A stretch of DNA of 64,000 nucleotides, taken from the NCBI GenBank assembly GCA_009783565.1, contig WRDF01000002.1:124001-188000 (forward strand), given 5' to 3'. This stretch comes from Rikenellaceae bacterium. GTDB taxonomy: Bacteria > Bacteroidota > Bacteroidia > Bacteroidales > Rikenellaceae. A program made the position numbers and the translations under genes. The notes under the pieces are model-generated. The model was not told the origin of the DNA and made no database searches. It worked only from the letters and a program-made list of their open reading frames with translations. Positions 49,727 through 56,786 of this stretch are shown here, in pieces (positions within the stretch are counted from its first letter, which is position 1; the number at the start of each line of letters is the position of its first letter).

Positions 49727-50143
49727 ATGAAGTACGATATCGTTCACGAGGGCATTGTGAAAGAAATAATGGGTAACATGGTGGTGGTCGCCGTCGAACA
49801 GAATTGCGCCTGCGGATCGTGTCGCGTGAAGAGCCTTTGCGGTCTGGGTGAGCGAGGCGAGAACGAAGTGGCTGTGTACGATCGCGATGCGGAGCGGTAC
49901 AGCGTCGGCGAGACGGTGGTTGTCGCCATCGGCACGGCGATGGGGATGAAGGCGGTGCTGTGGGCCTATATAATGCCTTTCCTGCTGATGCTGGCCACGC
50001 TTTTGATTACGAAAGAACTCGGTGCGACGGAACTTGTGTCGGGACTGCTGACGCTCGGCGCAGTGGGGGGTTACTATGCCTGCCTGTGGTTTGCGCGCCA
50101 TAAGATGGAGCGCGAGATAGTGTTTAAGATAATGAAAAGATAA
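49727..50143 (+). CDS. RseC family protein (SoxR-reducing / Rnf-associated)
   Basis: A 138-residue protein. The cytoplasmic N-terminal part has Cys motif CACGSCRVKSLCGLGE, as in RseC, followed by two TM helices (about 75-95 and 100-122). In Bacteroidetes it often heads the rnf operon, and may help assemble or tune it. It is 3 nt upstream of rnfB. Confidence 0.85.
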   Translation: MKYDIVHEGIVKEIMGNMVVVAVEQNCACGSCRVKSLCGLGERGENEVAVYDRDAERYSVGETVVVAIGTAMGMKAVLWAYIMPFLLMLATLLITKELGATELVSGLLTLGAVGGYYACLWFARHKMEREIVFKIMKR

Positions 50144-50146
50144 TAG

Positions 50147-51001
50147 ATGAACGAAACATTGATTGCGGTTCTCACGACGGCGGGAGCGCTCGTCGGGCTT
50201 GGGGTCTTTTCGGCGGCGGTGCTGTATTTGGTTTCGCTGAAATTCAAGGTTGACGAAGATCCGCGCATCGATACCGTCGAGGCTTTGCTTTCGGGTGCGA
50301 ACTGCGGCGGATGCGGGCTGCCCGGATGCCGCGGACTGGCTGAAATGCTCGTCGGTGAAGACGATATAAGCAAGCTCTACTGCCCGCCGGCAGGAGCGGA
50401 TACGATGGGGCAGATCGCGACGATGCTGGGCAAAGCAGCGCCTGCGCGCGAGCCGTCGGTGGCCGTTGTGCGATGCGCGGGCAGCTATGCGCGGCGCGAG
50501 AGGACGAACCGCTATGACGGTGCGGGGTCGTGTGCCGTAGCGGCTGCGCTGTACGGAGGCGAGACCGGTTGCACGTTCGGCTGTCTTAGCGAGGGCGACT
50601 GCGTTCGCGCGTGTCCGTTCGATGCCATTCATATGAATCCCGAAACAGGGCTGCCGGAAGTGGTGGATGAGAAATGCACGGCGTGCGGCAAATGCGTGAC
50701 GGCGTGTCCGAAGGCTTTGATAGAGCTTCGCAGGCAGGGGGCGCGTAATCGGCGTGTGTGCGTGACGTGCCGCAATCGGGACAAGGGCGCGGTGGCGCGC
50801 AAAGTGTGCGAGGTGGCGTGCATCGCGTGCGGCAAATGTGTGAAAGCGTGCACGTTCGATGCGATCGTTCTCGAAAACAATCTTGCGTTCATAGACTCGC
50901 ATAAGTGCAAGCTGTGCCGCAAGTGCGTGCCCGAATGCCCTACGGGAGCGATCGAAGAAACGGGCTTTCCTGCGCGTAAGGAAGAAAAGGAAACAGTGTA
51001 G
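50147..51001 (+). CDS. rnfB: Rnf electron transport complex subunit B
   Basis: A 284-residue iron-sulfur subunit. An N-terminal membrane helix (about 5-27) comes before the NCGGCGLPGCRG cluster motif and several ferredoxin-type motifs, including CTACGKCVTACP, CIACGKCVKACT and CKLCRKCVPECP. RnfB accepts electrons from reduced ferredoxin. A repeat of about 105 nt separates it from rnfC. Confidence 0.94.
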   Translation: MNETLIAVLTTAGALVGLGVFSAAVLYLVSLKFKVDEDPRIDTVEALLSGANCGGCGLPGCRGLAEMLVGEDDISKLYCPPAGADTMGQIATMLGKAAPAREPSVAVVRCAGSYARRERTNRYDGAGSCAVAAALYGGETGCTFGCLSEGDCVRACPFDAIHMNPETGLPEVVDEKCTACGKCVTACPKALIELRRQGARNRRVCVTCRNRDKGAVARKVCEVACIACGKCVKACTFDAIVLENNLAFIDSHKCKLCRKCVPECPTGAIEETGFPARKEEKETV

Positions 51002-51136: not shown

Positions 51137-52471
51137 ATGTCTAAAACTTTTCGCAAGGGCGGGGGGCATCCGTCGGATAATAAGCTGAGTCGCGCGGACG
51201 AGGTGGAGCGGATGCCGCTACCTCAGACGGTGGTGATTCCTCTCTCGCAGCATATCGGCGCACCGGCAACGGCAGTGGTCGCTAAGGGCGACCGCGTGAA
51301 AGTCGGGCAGTTGATAGGCGAGGCGGCGGGATTCGTGTCGAGCAATGTACACTCGTCGGTATCGGGGACTGTGCTGTCGGTGGATGCCGTGCCCGACCTG
51401 GGTGGTGTGCGGCGGCAGGCAGTGACGATAAAGGTGGAGGGCGACGAGTGGGCGGAAGGCATAGACCTCGACGGCTCGCTACGGCGCGAGTGTACGCTTT
51501 CGCCAGCCGAGATCATCGATAAGGTTAAGGAGGCGGGGGTCGTCGGGATGGGTGGCGCGCAGTTCCCCACGCATGTAAAACTCTCGATCCCGCAGGGCAA
51601 ACGTGCCGAGTATCTGTTGATCAACGGTGCGGAGTGCGAGCCTTACCTCACGTCCGACCATCGCGTGATGTTGGAACGTGGCGAGGAATTGCTTGCAGGG
51701 GTGAAGATACTTGCTAAAGCGCTGGGCGTCGGCAAGTCGTATATCGGAATCGAAAACAATAAGCCGGATGCGGTCGCTCATCTGCGCAAACTGGCGGCCG
51801 GCGACGCTGAGGTAGAAGTAATCGCGCTCAGGGCGCGTTATCCGCAGGGCGGCGAAAAACAGCTTATCGATGCCGTGCTGGGGCGTGAAGTGCCGTCGGG
51901 CGGGCTGCCGATAGACGTGGGGTGTGTGGTGCAGAACGTGGACACGGCGTTGGCGGTTTATGAGGCCGTACAGAAGAACAAACCGTTGGTCGAGCGCGTG
52001 GTGACCGTTACGGGAAAGTCGGTCGAGCGCCACGCGAATCTGCTGGTACGCATCGGGACGCCTCTGCAAGCGATCCTGGACTACTGCGGCGGGATGCCGG
52101 AGGATACGGGCAAGGTGATAAACGGCGGCCCGATGATGGGCAAAGCGGTGGCGAACCTCGACAGCGTGGTGACCAAGGGAACGTCGGGTATCGTGCTGAT
52201 GCGTGACGACGAGGCCGAGCGGCGCAAGTCCGGCGGAGCGTGTATCAAATGCGCCAAATGTGTACGGGGTTGCCCGATGGGTCTCGAACCGTACTATCTT
52301 TTCAAGTTAGGCGTTCGCGGCCGACTGACCGAGATGGAGGGCTACTGGGCGGCGGACTGCATCGAATGCGGGCTGTGCTCGTGGGTTTGCCCTGCCAACC
52401 TGCCGCTGTTGGACTACATCCGGCTCGGCAAGGTGGAGGTGATGAGAATTATGCGGGAGCGCAAAGGATAG
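51137..52471 (+). CDS. rnfC: Rnf electron transport complex subunit C
   Basis: A 444-residue peripheral subunit. The N-terminal barrel-like region is followed by the NADH/FMN domain (VVGMGGAQFPTHVKL, LINGAECEPYLTSDHR) and two C-terminal ferredoxin motifs, CIKCAKCVRGCP and CIECGLCSWVCP. RnfC passes electrons to NAD+. The TAG stop is the first part of a repeat. Confidence 0.94.
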   Translation: MSKTFRKGGGHPSDNKLSRADEVERMPLPQTVVIPLSQHIGAPATAVVAKGDRVKVGQLIGEAAGFVSSNVHSSVSGTVLSVDAVPDLGGVRRQAVTIKVEGDEWAEGIDLDGSLRRECTLSPAEIIDKVKEAGVVGMGGAQFPTHVKLSIPQGKRAEYLLINGAECEPYLTSDHRVMLERGEELLAGVKILAKALGVGKSYIGIENNKPDAVAHLRKLAAGDAEVEVIALRARYPQGGEKQLIDAVLGREVPSGGLPIDVGCVVQNVDTALAVYEAVQKNKPLVERVVTVTGKSVERHANLLVRIGTPLQAILDYCGGMPEDTGKVINGGPMMGKAVANLDSVVTKGTSGIVLMRDDEAERRKSGGACIKCAKCVRGCPMGLEPYYLFKLGVRGRLTEMEGYWAADCIECGLCSWVCPANLPLLDYIRLGKVEVMRIMRERKG

Positions 52472-52650: not shown

Positions 52651-53637
52651 ATGGACAAAAAACTGATTGTGTCGCCATCGCCGCATGTGTATAGCGGTGA
52701 ATCGACGCGAAAAATAATGCGCGACATTCTGATCGCCCTCGCGCCGGCTTTTGCCGTATCGTGGTTCTTCTACGGGGTGTCGGTGCTGGTGGTGACGGCG
52801 GTGAGCGTTATGACGTGCGTGCTGTTCGAGTGGCTGATACAACGCTTTATGCTTGGCGGGCAAAATACGATCAGAGACCTGTCGGCAGTGGTGACGGGCG
52901 TTCTGCTGGCTTTTAACCTGCCGTCGTCCGTGCCGTTGTGGATGGTGGCGGTGGGTGCGCTCGCTGCGATCGGGATCGGCAAGATGGCGTTCGGCGGGCT
53001 GGGGCGTAACCCGTTCAATCCGGCGTTGGTGGGGCGTGTATTCCTGCTGTTGTCGTTTCCGGTGGCCATGACATCGTTCCCTGCTCCGGAGGCAGTGGCT
53101 GACGGATTCACTGGCGCGACGCCGTTGATGCTGGCCAAAGAGGCGCTGATGAGCGGACAGCCGCTAAGCGCGCTGATGCCGGAAATGTCGTACGGCAATC
53201 TGCTGCTGGGAGCGAATGCGGGATCGATAGGCGAGATCGCGGCGTTGGCGCTGCTGCTGGGATTCGCTTACCTGCTAATCCGGCGCGTTATAACGTGGCA
53301 CATTCCGGTGTTGATACTGGGCACGATGGCCGTTTTTGCGGGTGTGCTGCACGGGGCGAACCCGGAGATATACGCAAGTCCGCTGTTCCACGTTTTGACG
53401 GGCGGGGCTATTCTGGGTGCGGTTTTCATGGCAACGGATTACTCCACGTCGCCGATGAGTACGGGCGGAATAATCGTTTATGCGGTGGCGATAGGCGCGA
53501 TCACGATGCTTATTCGCGTATGGGGGGCATATCCTGAGGGCATCTCGTTCGCGATACTCATAATGAACGCTATGGTGCCGCTGCTTAATAAATATATGCG
53601 GCCAAAGAAATTCGGGGCAATAAAAAGAGTAGCATGA
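52651..53637 (+). CDS. rnfD: Rnf electron transport complex subunit D
   Basis: A 328-residue integral membrane subunit with about nine or ten TM helices. The FMN attachment threonine lies in DGFTGATPLMLA. GRNPFNPALVGRVFL is the family's signature. It overlaps rnfG by 4 nt (ATGA). Confidence 0.94.
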   Translation: MDKKLIVSPSPHVYSGESTRKIMRDILIALAPAFAVSWFFYGVSVLVVTAVSVMTCVLFEWLIQRFMLGGQNTIRDLSAVVTGVLLAFNLPSSVPLWMVAVGALAAIGIGKMAFGGLGRNPFNPALVGRVFLLLSFPVAMTSFPAPEAVADGFTGATPLMLAKEALMSGQPLSALMPEMSYGNLLLGANAGSIGEIAALALLLGFAYLLIRRVITWHIPVLILGTMAVFAGVLHGANPEIYASPLFHVLTGGAILGAVFMATDYSTSPMSTGGIIVYAVAIGAITMLIRVWGAYPEGISFAILIMNAMVPLLNKYMRPKKFGAIKRVA

Positions 53638-54830
53638 AAAGTTCGTTAAAAAATATGATCCTCTGTCTTGGCGTTATCGGGCTGGTATCGGCTGTGGGGC
53701 TGACGCTGATCTATAATATGACCAAGGGTACGATCGCGGCGGCGAATCTTGCACGGACGACGGGAGCGCTGGCCAATGTCATGCCGCCGTTCGACAACAA
53801 CCCGATGGAGGGCGCGGTAGAGATGGAACTGGACGGCATTGCAACGCGTGTTTTCACCGGACGGATGGACGGCCGGACGACGGGATTTGCCGTAGAGACG
53901 AGCACACGGCTGGGTTACAGCGGCATCATACGTATGCTGGTAGGGTTCACCCCCGAAGGCGAGGTGCATAATATCGAAGTGCTGGAACAAAGCGAAACGC
54001 CGGGTCTGGGCGATAAGATACTGCATCCGGACAACGTGCTGGTGGTGAGTTTTCGCGGGCGCAACCCTGTCGATATGCAGATGGCGGTGGTGAAAGACGG
54101 CGGTGAGGTGGATGCTATAACAGCCTCGACGGTCACCTCGCGTGCGTACATCGATGCGGTAGACAGGGCGCACAGGGCATTCGTGGCGGTGAGCACGGGG
54201 GCGGTCGCGCTGCCTTCGGTAATGACCGGAGCGACCGCACATACGGCGGAGGCAGAGACGACGGCCGGCATCGATGCGATGGCATTCGTGGCGGCGGTGT
54301 TGCCTGTGCATAACGTGGTCTCGACACATGACCTTATGTTGAACTCGGAGCGCATGGTGGTTCACACTGCCCAACAGAACGGTGTGACGGTGGGCTATGC
54401 CGTGCAGACGGAAAGCGATGAGGGATGGAGCGGTGTGATCCGTCTGATGGTAGGTTTTCTGCCTGACGGTACGATCTACGATATTGCGGTGATGGAGCAG
54501 AACGAAACTCCGGGCTACGGCGATGTGATTACACGGCCCGACAACGCGCTTGCCAAGAGTTTACGCGGACGTAATGCACATGAGGTACAATTCGGCTTGC
54601 GGGGCGGAGGCGGAGGGACTGCTGCGCCGACCGATGTTTCCCGCACAAGAGGGCGCGAAGGAGGGCGTGAGAGAGAAGGACGCGAAGGCGGCCATAGGCG
54701 TATTACGCTGGCCGACGCTGTGGCGGGCGACGTGGACGGCATCACGGGTTCGACGGTAACATCGGTCGCCTACGTCGATGCCGTAGAGCGTGCCTACAAG
54801 GCTTTCGCGGCGATGAAGCATCTTGAATAA
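53634..54830 (+). CDS. rnfG: Rnf complex subunit G with two FMN-binding domains
   Basis: A 398-residue protein; RnfG is usually a little over 200. One N-terminal TM helix (about 8-28) is followed by two similar periplasmic FMN-binding domains. Domain 1 (about 60-190) has YSGIIRMLVGFTPEGEVHNI and DAITASTVTSRAYIDAV. Domain 2 (about 230-395) has WSGVIRLMVGFLPDGTIYDI and DGITGSTVTSVAYVDAV. Both keep the Ser/Thr-x-Thr for covalent FMN. Domain 2 has an inserted Arg/Gly/Glu-rich loop (GREGGREREGREGGHRR). Confidence 0.92.
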   Translation: MKSSLKNMILCLGVIGLVSAVGLTLIYNMTKGTIAAANLARTTGALANVMPPFDNNPMEGAVEMELDGIATRVFTGRMDGRTTGFAVETSTRLGYSGIIRMLVGFTPEGEVHNIEVLEQSETPGLGDKILHPDNVLVVSFRGRNPVDMQMAVVKDGGEVDAITASTVTSRAYIDAVDRAHRAFVAVSTGAVALPSVMTGATAHTAEAETTAGIDAMAFVAAVLPVHNVVSTHDLMLNSERMVVHTAQQNGVTVGYAVQTESDEGWSGVIRLMVGFLPDGTIYDIAVMEQNETPGYGDVITRPDNALAKSLRGRNAHEVQFGLRGGGGGTAAPTDVSRTRGREGGREREGREGGHRRITLADAVAGDVDGITGSTVTSVAYVDAVERAYKAFAAMKHLE

Positions 54831-54849: not shown

Positions 54850-55440
54850 ATGGGCAAAATACAGATACTGACGCGCGGGATTATAAAAGACAACCCGATA
54901 TTCGTATTGCTGCTGGGCTTGTGTCCCACGTTGGGGACGACGTCGTCGGCCATGAACGGTCTGGGTATGGGGGTGGCTACGATGTTTATTCTCGTGCTGG
55001 CGAATATTGTGATCTCTATTTTTAAGGACGTCATTCCGAACAAGGTGCGTATCCCCGCTTACATCGTGATAATCACGACGCTGGTGACCGTTTTGGAGCT
55101 GCTGATAAAGGCCTACATGCCCGGATTGAACAGTGCGCTGGGAGTGTTCATTCCGCTCATTGCGGTGAACTGTATCGTCTTTGCCCGGGTGGAAGCCTTT
55201 GCGTCGAAGAACAATGTGGTGAACTCGGCGCTCGACGGATTGGGCGCGGGACTCGGTTTTACGATGGCGCTCACGCTGCTCGGCGTTGTGCGCGAGATGT
55301 TGGGGACAGGTATGTTCTTCGGATATAAATTCATAGAAGGCGACGGCGTGCTGATCTTCGTCCTCGCGCCCGGAGCGTTCATTGCACTCGGATTCCTTAT
55401 CGCGATTTTCAGAAAAGTCGCCAAAGCGACTTCGATATAA
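54850..55440 (+). CDS. rnfE: Rnf complex subunit E, first copy
   Basis: A 196-residue, six-TM subunit. The two Cys that, with RnfA, are thought to bind the intramembrane [2Fe-2S] cluster are kept: LLLGLCPTLG and AVNCIVFAR. The C-terminus has EGDGVLIFVLAPGAFIALGF. Start at ATG 54850 (MGKIQILTRG). A close second copy follows 59 nt downstream. Confidence 0.94.
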   Translation: MGKIQILTRGIIKDNPIFVLLLGLCPTLGTTSSAMNGLGMGVATMFILVLANIVISIFKDVIPNKVRIPAYIVIITTLVTVLELLIKAYMPGLNSALGVFIPLIAVNCIVFARVEAFASKNNVVNSALDGLGAGLGFTMALTLLGVVREMLGTGMFFGYKFIEGDGVLIFVLAPGAFIALGFLIAIFRKVAKATSI

Positions 55441-55499: not shown

Positions 55500-56087
55500 A
55501 TGAGCAAGATACAGATACTGACACGGGGGATCATAAAAGACAATCCGATATTCGTGCTTCTGCTGGGCATTTGTCCCATGCTGGGAACGACATCGTCGGC
55601 CATGAACGGTCTGGGTATGGGTATAGCGACCATGTCCGTACTCTTGTTGTCGAATATCATGATCTCTTTGTTCAAAAATCTGATACCCAACAAAGTACGT
55701 ATTCCGGCATACATCGTGATAATCACGACGCTGGTAACCGCTCTCCAACTGTTGATGAATGCCTATACGCCCGCGCTATACAACACACTGGGAGTATTCA
55801 TTCCGCTCATCGCTACGAACTGTTTGATTTTCGCACGCGTGGAAGCCTTTGCGTCAAAGAACAATGTAGTGAACTCGGCGATAGACGGACTGGGTACAGG
55901 GTTTGGATTCTTGGGTGCGCTCGTGTTGCTGGGTACTATCCGTGAGATATTGGGGACGGGTACGTTCTTCGGACATAAATTCATCGAAGGCGATGGTGTG
56001 TTGATCTTTGTCCTTGCGCCGGGAGCGTTCATAGCCCTCGGATTTCTTATCGCGATTTTCAGAAAAGTGACTGCCAAAATATCTTAA
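55500..56087 (+). CDS. rnfE: Rnf complex subunit E, second tandem copy
   Basis: A 195-residue paralogue of the preceding gene. The N-terminus (IQILTRGIIKDNPIFVLLLG) and C-terminal 35 residues are nearly identical; the middle helices differ more. Both cluster cysteines are kept (LLLGICPMLG, ATNCLIFAR), so it could work as RnfE. The frame is intact with its own ATG. No other rnf operon I know of carries two adjacent rnfE genes as standard. Confidence 0.92.
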   Translation: MSKIQILTRGIIKDNPIFVLLLGICPMLGTTSSAMNGLGMGIATMSVLLLSNIMISLFKNLIPNKVRIPAYIVIITTLVTALQLLMNAYTPALYNTLGVFIPLIATNCLIFARVEAFASKNNVVNSAIDGLGTGFGFLGALVLLGTIREILGTGTFFGHKFIEGDGVLIFVLAPGAFIALGFLIAIFRKVTAKIS

Positions 56088-56120
56088 AAAACTTGTTCTT
56101 AAACGAAATAACCTTTGCAG

Positions 56121-56693
56121 ATGGAGTATCTTATAATAATAATAAGCGCGATTTTTGTTAATAACATCATTCTCGCGCAGTTTCTCGGAATATGCCCCTT
56201 TCTCGGAGTATCGAGCCGGGTGACGACTTCGGTGGGCATGGGCGCGGCCGTTACGTTCGTAATAACCATAGCGGCCTTGCTGGTCTATCTGCTGCAATAT
56301 TATATACTCGTACCGTTGGGCATAGAGTATATGCAGACCATCGCGTTCATACTCACGATCGCCGTGATGGTACAGATGGTGGAGATCATACTCAAAAAGG
56401 TGAGTCCCTCTCTGTACCGTGCTCTGGGGGTTTTTCTGCCGTTGATGACAACCAATTGCGCCATACTCGGAGTTGCGATCATTCTGGTGCAGAAGGAGTA
56501 CAACATGTTCGAATCGGTTGTCTTTGCATCGTCGACGGGCGTGGGGTTCACCGTGGCAATGGTGATTTTCGCCGGTATCCGTGAGCGCCTCGACTTGGAG
56601 GATCTGCCTGCGGGCATGAAAGGCGCACCTATCGCTTTGGTCACCGCCGGAATCCTCGCAATGGCCTTTATGGGATTTTCGGGAGTGGTCTAA
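56121..56693 (+). CDS. rnfA: Rnf complex subunit A
   Basis: A 190-residue, six-TM subunit, structurally the inverted partner of RnfE. FVNNIILAQFLGICPFLG and MTTNCAILG carry the two cluster cysteines. Start at ATG 56121 rather than the in-frame TTG at 56115. Last gene of the rnf operon; the stop TAA is joined to a perfect ACACACGCGTGTGT palindrome. Confidence 0.94.
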   Translation: MEYLIIIISAIFVNNIILAQFLGICPFLGVSSRVTTSVGMGAAVTFVITIAALLVYLLQYYILVPLGIEYMQTIAFILTIAVMVQMVEIILKKVSPSLYRALGVFLPLMTTNCAILGVAIILVQKEYNMFESVVFASSTGVGFTVAMVIFAGIRERLDLEDLPAGMKGAPIALVTAGILAMAFMGFSGVV

Positions 56694-56755
56694 CACACGC
56701 GTGTGTTTTCCGGCCTGCCGGTTGTTTTGTCATTGCGGGCTTGACCCGCAATGAT
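56693..56755 (+). repeat. Complete composite repeat after rnfA
   Basis: The clearest copy: perfect 14-bp palindrome ACACACGCGTGTGT (56693-56706), link TTT, hairpin CCGGCCTGCCGG, spacer TTGTTTT, then GTCATTGCGGG / CCCGCAATGA(T) at 56729-56755. Confidence 0.85.
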
Positions 56756-56786
56756 ATTTTTATACGCATCTTCTGAGTTTTTTCGT

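Follow-up and report, generated by a model that had tools for sequence, protein, structure and literature searches.

Tandem FMN-binding domains in RnfG of a Rikenellaceae bacterium and predicted flavin-tag tails on RnfG of other Bacteroidales

The rnf operon and its two-domain RnfG

The window (the whole stretch of 64,000 nucleotides that was analysed) contains a complete rnf operon. Profile searches and gene positions gave the order rseC-rnfB-rnfC-rnfD-rnfG-rnfE-rnfE-rnfA, with all genes on the forward strand, and the operon probably ends at the hairpin that follows rnfA. Its genes and features are:

49727-50143, forward strand: rseC-like gene, first of the operon (position and RseC-type Cys-rich sequence; no NCBIfam match)
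50147-51001, forward strand: rnfB (TIGR01944 and FeS matches)
51137-52471, forward strand: rnfC (TIGR01945, 551 bits)
52651-53637, forward strand: rnfD (TIGR01946, 352 bits)
53634-54830, forward strand: rnfG, fifth gene, tandem two-domain, 398 aa (TIGR01947, 208.5 bits; two PF04205 domains)
54850-55440, forward strand: rnfE, copy 1 (TIGR01948, 245 bits; ATG at 54850)
55500-56087, forward strand: rnfE, copy 2, a lineage-specific duplicate (TIGR01948, 246 bits)
56115-56693, forward strand: rnfA (TIGR01943, 273 bits)
56728-56756, forward strand: terminator-like hairpin, 12-bp stem and T-run, 3' of rnfA (consensus scan only)

The start listed for the first rnfE copy, a TTG at 54823, would overlap rnfG. 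The two rnfE copies share 80% amino acid identity (dS 0.88, dN/dS 0.15) and both have the conserved CP and NC cysteines; both look functional. Two rnfE genes were found only in this genome, with a single one in the other members of the genus and in about 90 other loci.

Profile searches bear out the initial annotation of the fifth gene as a 398-residue RnfG with two FMN-binding domains. The protein scored 208.5 bits against the NCBIfam model rnfG TIGR01947 (cut-off 102) and had two matches to Pfam FMN_bind PF04205, totalling 117.1 bits (cut-off 22); scored separately, its halves reached 63.2 bits (E 4e-17) and 61.2 bits (E 2e-16). We rejected an identity as NqrC (TIGR01938, 28 bits against a cut-off of 144); the genuine NqrC-type gene of this genome lies at a separate locus (G000 contig C1). 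A CxxCH multi-heme domain is absent from the protein, the sole Cys being residue 11, in the membrane helix. Along the gene we distinguished:

53646-53780, forward strand: N-terminal membrane anchor and linker helix, residues 5-49 (a single continuous helix in the AlphaFold2 model)
53802-54194, forward strand: domain 1, canonical periplasmic FMN domain, residues ~57-187 (profile and AlphaFold2)
54111-54131, forward strand: flavinylation motif 1, DAITAST, predicted FMN-Thr166 (sequence; T166 invariant among tandem relatives)
54195-54275, forward strand: flexible interdomain linker, residues 188-214 (pLDDT < 50 at 193-212)
54216-54236, forward strand: SVMTGAT in the linker (T201; alignment with tags of G021, G061 and G062)
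54276-54824, forward strand: domain 2, RnfG-type FMN domain, residues ~215-397, interrupted by an insert (profile, AlphaFold2 and structure matches)
54735-54755, forward strand: flavinylation motif 2, DGITGST, predicted FMN-Thr374 (sequence and alignment)

The motif pairs recognized at the outset, GFTPEG/GFLPDG and DAITASTVTS/DGITGSTVTS, were all found in the protein. The motif modified by ApbE is D-x-x-[S/T]-G-A-[S/T] (PMC12052999), from which DAITAST departs by G>A and A>S; DGITGST fits it, with A>S at position 6.

An AlphaFold2 model of the full protein, built on 14 sequences, shows a single anchor helix followed by two periplasmic domains, both complete and identical in the order of their elements; RnfG in known complexes also has a single transmembrane segment (PMC12174285). 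The repeat was first described as two FMN-binding cores, which are indeed present, but this understates its extent: in the model the entire periplasmic domain is duplicated. Confidence is low (pLDDT < 50) in the linker (193-212) and in the insert (322-365), and the mutual placement of the two domains in the model is unreliable (pTM 0.45). A Foldseek search with the full-protein model matched 8ahx_G, 9eri_G and 7zc6_G, with the anchor helix and the periplasmic fold present. The RnfG fold of domain 2, whose absence would have refuted the initial annotation, is supported: modelled alone, its best solved structures were RnfG and NqrC chains (9eri_G, E 2e-5; 7zc6_G, 1e-4; 8ahx_G, 1e-4; 8rb9_G, within 2e-5 to 1e-4), and its profile retrieved the same chains by sequence (7zc6_G, E 3e-18).

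The Arg/Gly/Glu-rich insert

Domain 2 is interrupted, in a loop just 5' of motif 2, by a segment of unusual composition:

54600-54722, forward strand: Arg/Gly/Glu-rich insert, 41 residues (~323-363), predicted disordered
54598-54718, forward strand: stretch in which the +1 frame has better codon statistics than that of rnfG, a suspected displaced frame (codon model)
54649-54688, forward strand: imperfect 12-bp tandem repeat that encodes GRE-type repeats (TRF score 39)

The insert is present as initially described, but its standing as a feature of the protein is doubtful: the codon signal lies in the +1 frame, and no insert was found in any of the relatives aligned. Under a codon model trained on the other genes of the window, the rnfG frame scored +0.3 nats per codon 5' of the insert and about +0.25 3' of it. 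Between 54598 and 54718, the +1 frame, which is free of stops and encodes an Ala/Glu-rich rather than an Arg/Gly peptide, totalled 8.0 nats versus 0.7 for the rnfG frame; of 1378 pieces taken from other genes, 0.65% showed a difference that large, although this is a comparison of codon usage over a GC-rich repeat, in which composition bias is possible. A search of the insert DNA against the rest of the genus returned nothing beyond short chance matches, and we rejected on these grounds an insert conserved in the genus or moved from elsewhere in it.

Given the frame statistics and the absence of the insert from relatives, it is most likely a segment shifted by one reading frame. The simplest account would be an inserted segment that was displaced by two compensating indels, between which it probably lies, the first of them perhaps at a G-run; either true mutations or assembly errors could have produced them. 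In either case the length of the insert would stay and its odd composition would go. A genuine selected loop, making for example a polycationic contact with the membrane, peptidoglycan or an acceptor, would be compatible with the GREGGREREGREGG peptide: its frame has no stop over ~41 residues and stays in phase with the flanking sequence at either end, and the 12-bp repeat within it might have expanded locally. Its absence from all relatives, its predicted disorder and the codon signal in the +1 frame argue against such a loop, which we consider quite unlikely, and we favour the displaced frame.

Tandem domains and C-terminal tails among relatives

Across the focal genus, tandem RnfG was found in 7/7 genomes, at the same operon position and in one frame. 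The focal genome is an incomplete draft (22 contigs, 92% complete), in which a mis-assembly might have fused two neighbouring rnfG genes; however, the six further genomes show the same architecture, and we rejected an assembly chimera as having a negligible probability. Other tandem RnfGs are scattered: in Tidjanibacter and its genus, in one genome of the genus with Alistipes-like records, and in a distant Bacteroidales group. In a tree of single domains, no fewer than three label changes, on branches with good support, are needed to account for domain 2, and in two lineages (G055 and L058/L068/L175) domains 1 and 2 cluster together. This grouping within lineages therefore points to several origins of the architecture, and tandem RnfG arose at least three times in Bacteroidales. 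Its repeated origin suggests selection. We also observed a 381-aa RnfG (L139:940-2085, minus strand) whose second domain has diverged and ends in DATSGPT; it may be a tandem copy in decay.

The two domains have not been conserved equally. ETPGLG and the attachment Thr of domain 1 are invariant in all tandem relatives, whereas ETPGLG is only partly kept in domain 2, whose branches are also longer in the single-domain tree; both patterns would follow from an essential role for domain 1. At the attachment place of motif 2, all 9 aligned tandem proteins have Thr or Ser (9/9), and the motif Asp and the Thr/Ser of both attachment sites are kept in 7/7 genus members. Together, the profiles, the structure models and the conservation of both sites support a two-domain RnfG that is predicted to bind two flavins.

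Domain 2 might instead be a drifting or structural duplicate, with no FMN or no redox role. It evolves faster, ETPG has been lost there in several genus members, the site 2 residue is Ser rather than Thr in 4/7 of them, and a degenerate tandem copy exists in L139; Ser is modified less efficiently than Thr by ApbE (PMC12052999). Yet the Asp and Thr/Ser have persisted throughout the genus over long divergence, the focal copy retains both ETPG and Thr, and the architecture was gained repeatedly and independently. We regard a duplicate without FMN or redox role as an unlikely alternative to a flavin-bearing domain 2.

Single-domain RnfGs of many Bacteroidales have disordered-looking C-terminal tails with exact matches to D-x-x-[S/T]-G-A-[S/T] (DxxSGAT). 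In an order-wide sample, 14/104 RnfGs had the tail motif, compared with a mean of 0.07 and a maximum of 2 for shuffled tails, and the Asp was correctly placed before every [ST]GA[ST] core. A second set gave 21/84 RnfGs, versus 0/452 termini of RnfA-E and RseC and 0/272 other ORFs. The tagged single-domain proteins (L249:265-1140, L251:3248-4078 and L089:4489-5271; also L042, L044, L172 and others) have from one to five motifs, with up to five copies in L249 and L251, and also in L089, separated by differing spacers; the RnfG of genome G045 likewise has a multi-tag tail. Found far more often than by chance, and among the termini compared only on RnfG, the tails are predicted to be natural flavin-tags to which FMN would be attached. 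Among the tandem proteins examined, none had a tag C-terminal to the second domain. A limited literature search found no description of such tails on RnfG.

In one Rikenellaceae genus, tandem RnfGs occur alongside RnfGs with five, three or one tag, with Cys-rich tails or with plain ends. The Cys-rich RnfG tails, found in L033 (G047) and L022 (G053) of the genus that has the tag arrays (e.g., ACGGCTKEEAQECGKGPHGNCGANCKHK), may possibly form a metal or Fe-S site added at the same end. In the focal protein, the linker sequence SVMTGAT aligns with the tag position of Alistipes-type relatives, with the Asp replaced by Ser. A degenerate remnant of a tail tag is only suggested by this alignment, because [ST]GA[ST] arises by chance in 6% of shuffled focal linkers. 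Bacteroidales-like RnfGs were also found in two records labelled Paenibacillus (L121, JAMPHR010000002.1) and Omnitrophota (L066, JADFZM010000006.1), of which the tree clusters the former with a Duncaniella record; both are probably mislabelled bins.

Proposed role and known systems

We propose, with a probability of about 0.6, that the tandem RnfG belongs to an ordinary Rnf complex in which domain 1 shuttles electrons and a flavin-bearing domain 2 is a side branch or buffer, the insert being a displaced frame. In solved Rnf and NQR complexes, the RnfG/NqrC domain moves between the [2Fe-2S] cluster of RnfA/E and the FMN of RnfD/NqrB (PMC12174285). After a tandem duplication of the whole periplasmic domain within the genus, domain 1, with FMN on Thr166, would still make this swing from the RnfA/E cluster to the FMN of RnfD. 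Domain 2, tethered by a flexible linker of ~25 residues, would bear a second covalent FMN on Thr374, attached by the single ApbE of the genome, in which we found one apbE. Electrons would pass from domain 1 through domain 2 to periplasmic acceptors with no obligatory step in series, and the Arg/Gly/Glu insert would play no part in electron transfer.

The presence in relatives of tail motifs that add predicted flavin sites at the same end of the protein argues for such a side branch. Against it, we found no NrfA-type cytochrome c552 as an acceptor in the focal genome (92% complete), whose sole other FMN_bind protein is NqrC; the genome also carries an NQR operon, and the search for acceptors returned two full-length FAD_binding_2 proteins.

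The initial annotation had an extra flavin lengthening the periplasmic electron path. In its strict form, the FMN of domain 2 would be obligatory between RnfA/E and RnfD and the path would run through both flavins, for which two intact attachment motifs and linkers flexible enough to allow hopping can be adduced. However, RnfA, RnfD and RnfE are ordinary and made for a single RnfG domain, domain 1 holds the invariant contact features while domain 2 evolves faster, and other members of the same family manage without a second domain. A lengthened path is disfavoured because domain 1 has to keep moving between RnfA/E and RnfD, and we regard a series relay as very unlikely; a side branch fits better.

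More broadly, the C-terminus of RnfG may be a hot spot at which Bacteroidales have repeatedly added flavins, by domain duplication or by DxxSGAT tails, building a multi-flavin arm or "brush" that taps electrons from the pump, a generalization to which we would give an even chance. Many gut anaerobes have Rnf as their central ferredoxin:NAD+ energy converter, and the complex has been described with one RnfG flavin. If the extra flavins are real, Rnf could here also supply electrons to the periplasm. The repeated gains in one family, which in one genus include both tandem domains and tag arrays, offer natural comparisons for the role of an extra flavin.

The double-domain RnfG is not new as an architecture: multi-flavinylated RnfGs, likewise encoded in rnf clusters and having two or more FMN-binding domains, have been reported, and for them bifurcated transfer to other periplasmic acceptors was proposed, a role like that of the side branch favoured here (Meheust et al. 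2021, eLife, PMC8238504). The focal gene is a further example, its second-site flavinylation being predicted from sequence. That survey counted Pfam domains, so tail tags would be missed, and its main text gives no detail on Rikenellaceae (PMC8238504). The Christensenellales-type RnfG has a multi-heme part, which the focal RnfG lacks. Solved single-domain RnfGs (8AHX/8RB9 from Azotobacter, 9ERI from Acetobacterium, 7ZC6 from Clostridium tetanomorphum) share with it the anchor helix, the fold of domain 1 and the attachment motif, but have one periplasmic domain where the focal protein has two and an insert. Tandem FMN_bind domains also occur in SaFMN3 and CbFMN4, which were purified with each domain covalently flavinylated upon co-expression with ApbE (Tong et al. 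2023, PMC10339131); unlike the focal RnfG, these are stand-alone secreted proteins of three or four domains and not Rnf subunits. Finally, in the engineered flavin-tag (Tong et al. 2021, described in PMC12052999), seven residues, D-x-x-[S/T]-G-A-[S/T], at a terminus suffice for ApbE; the motif is identical to that of the RnfG tails, but the tag is artificial, whereas the tails are natural and form arrays of up to five.
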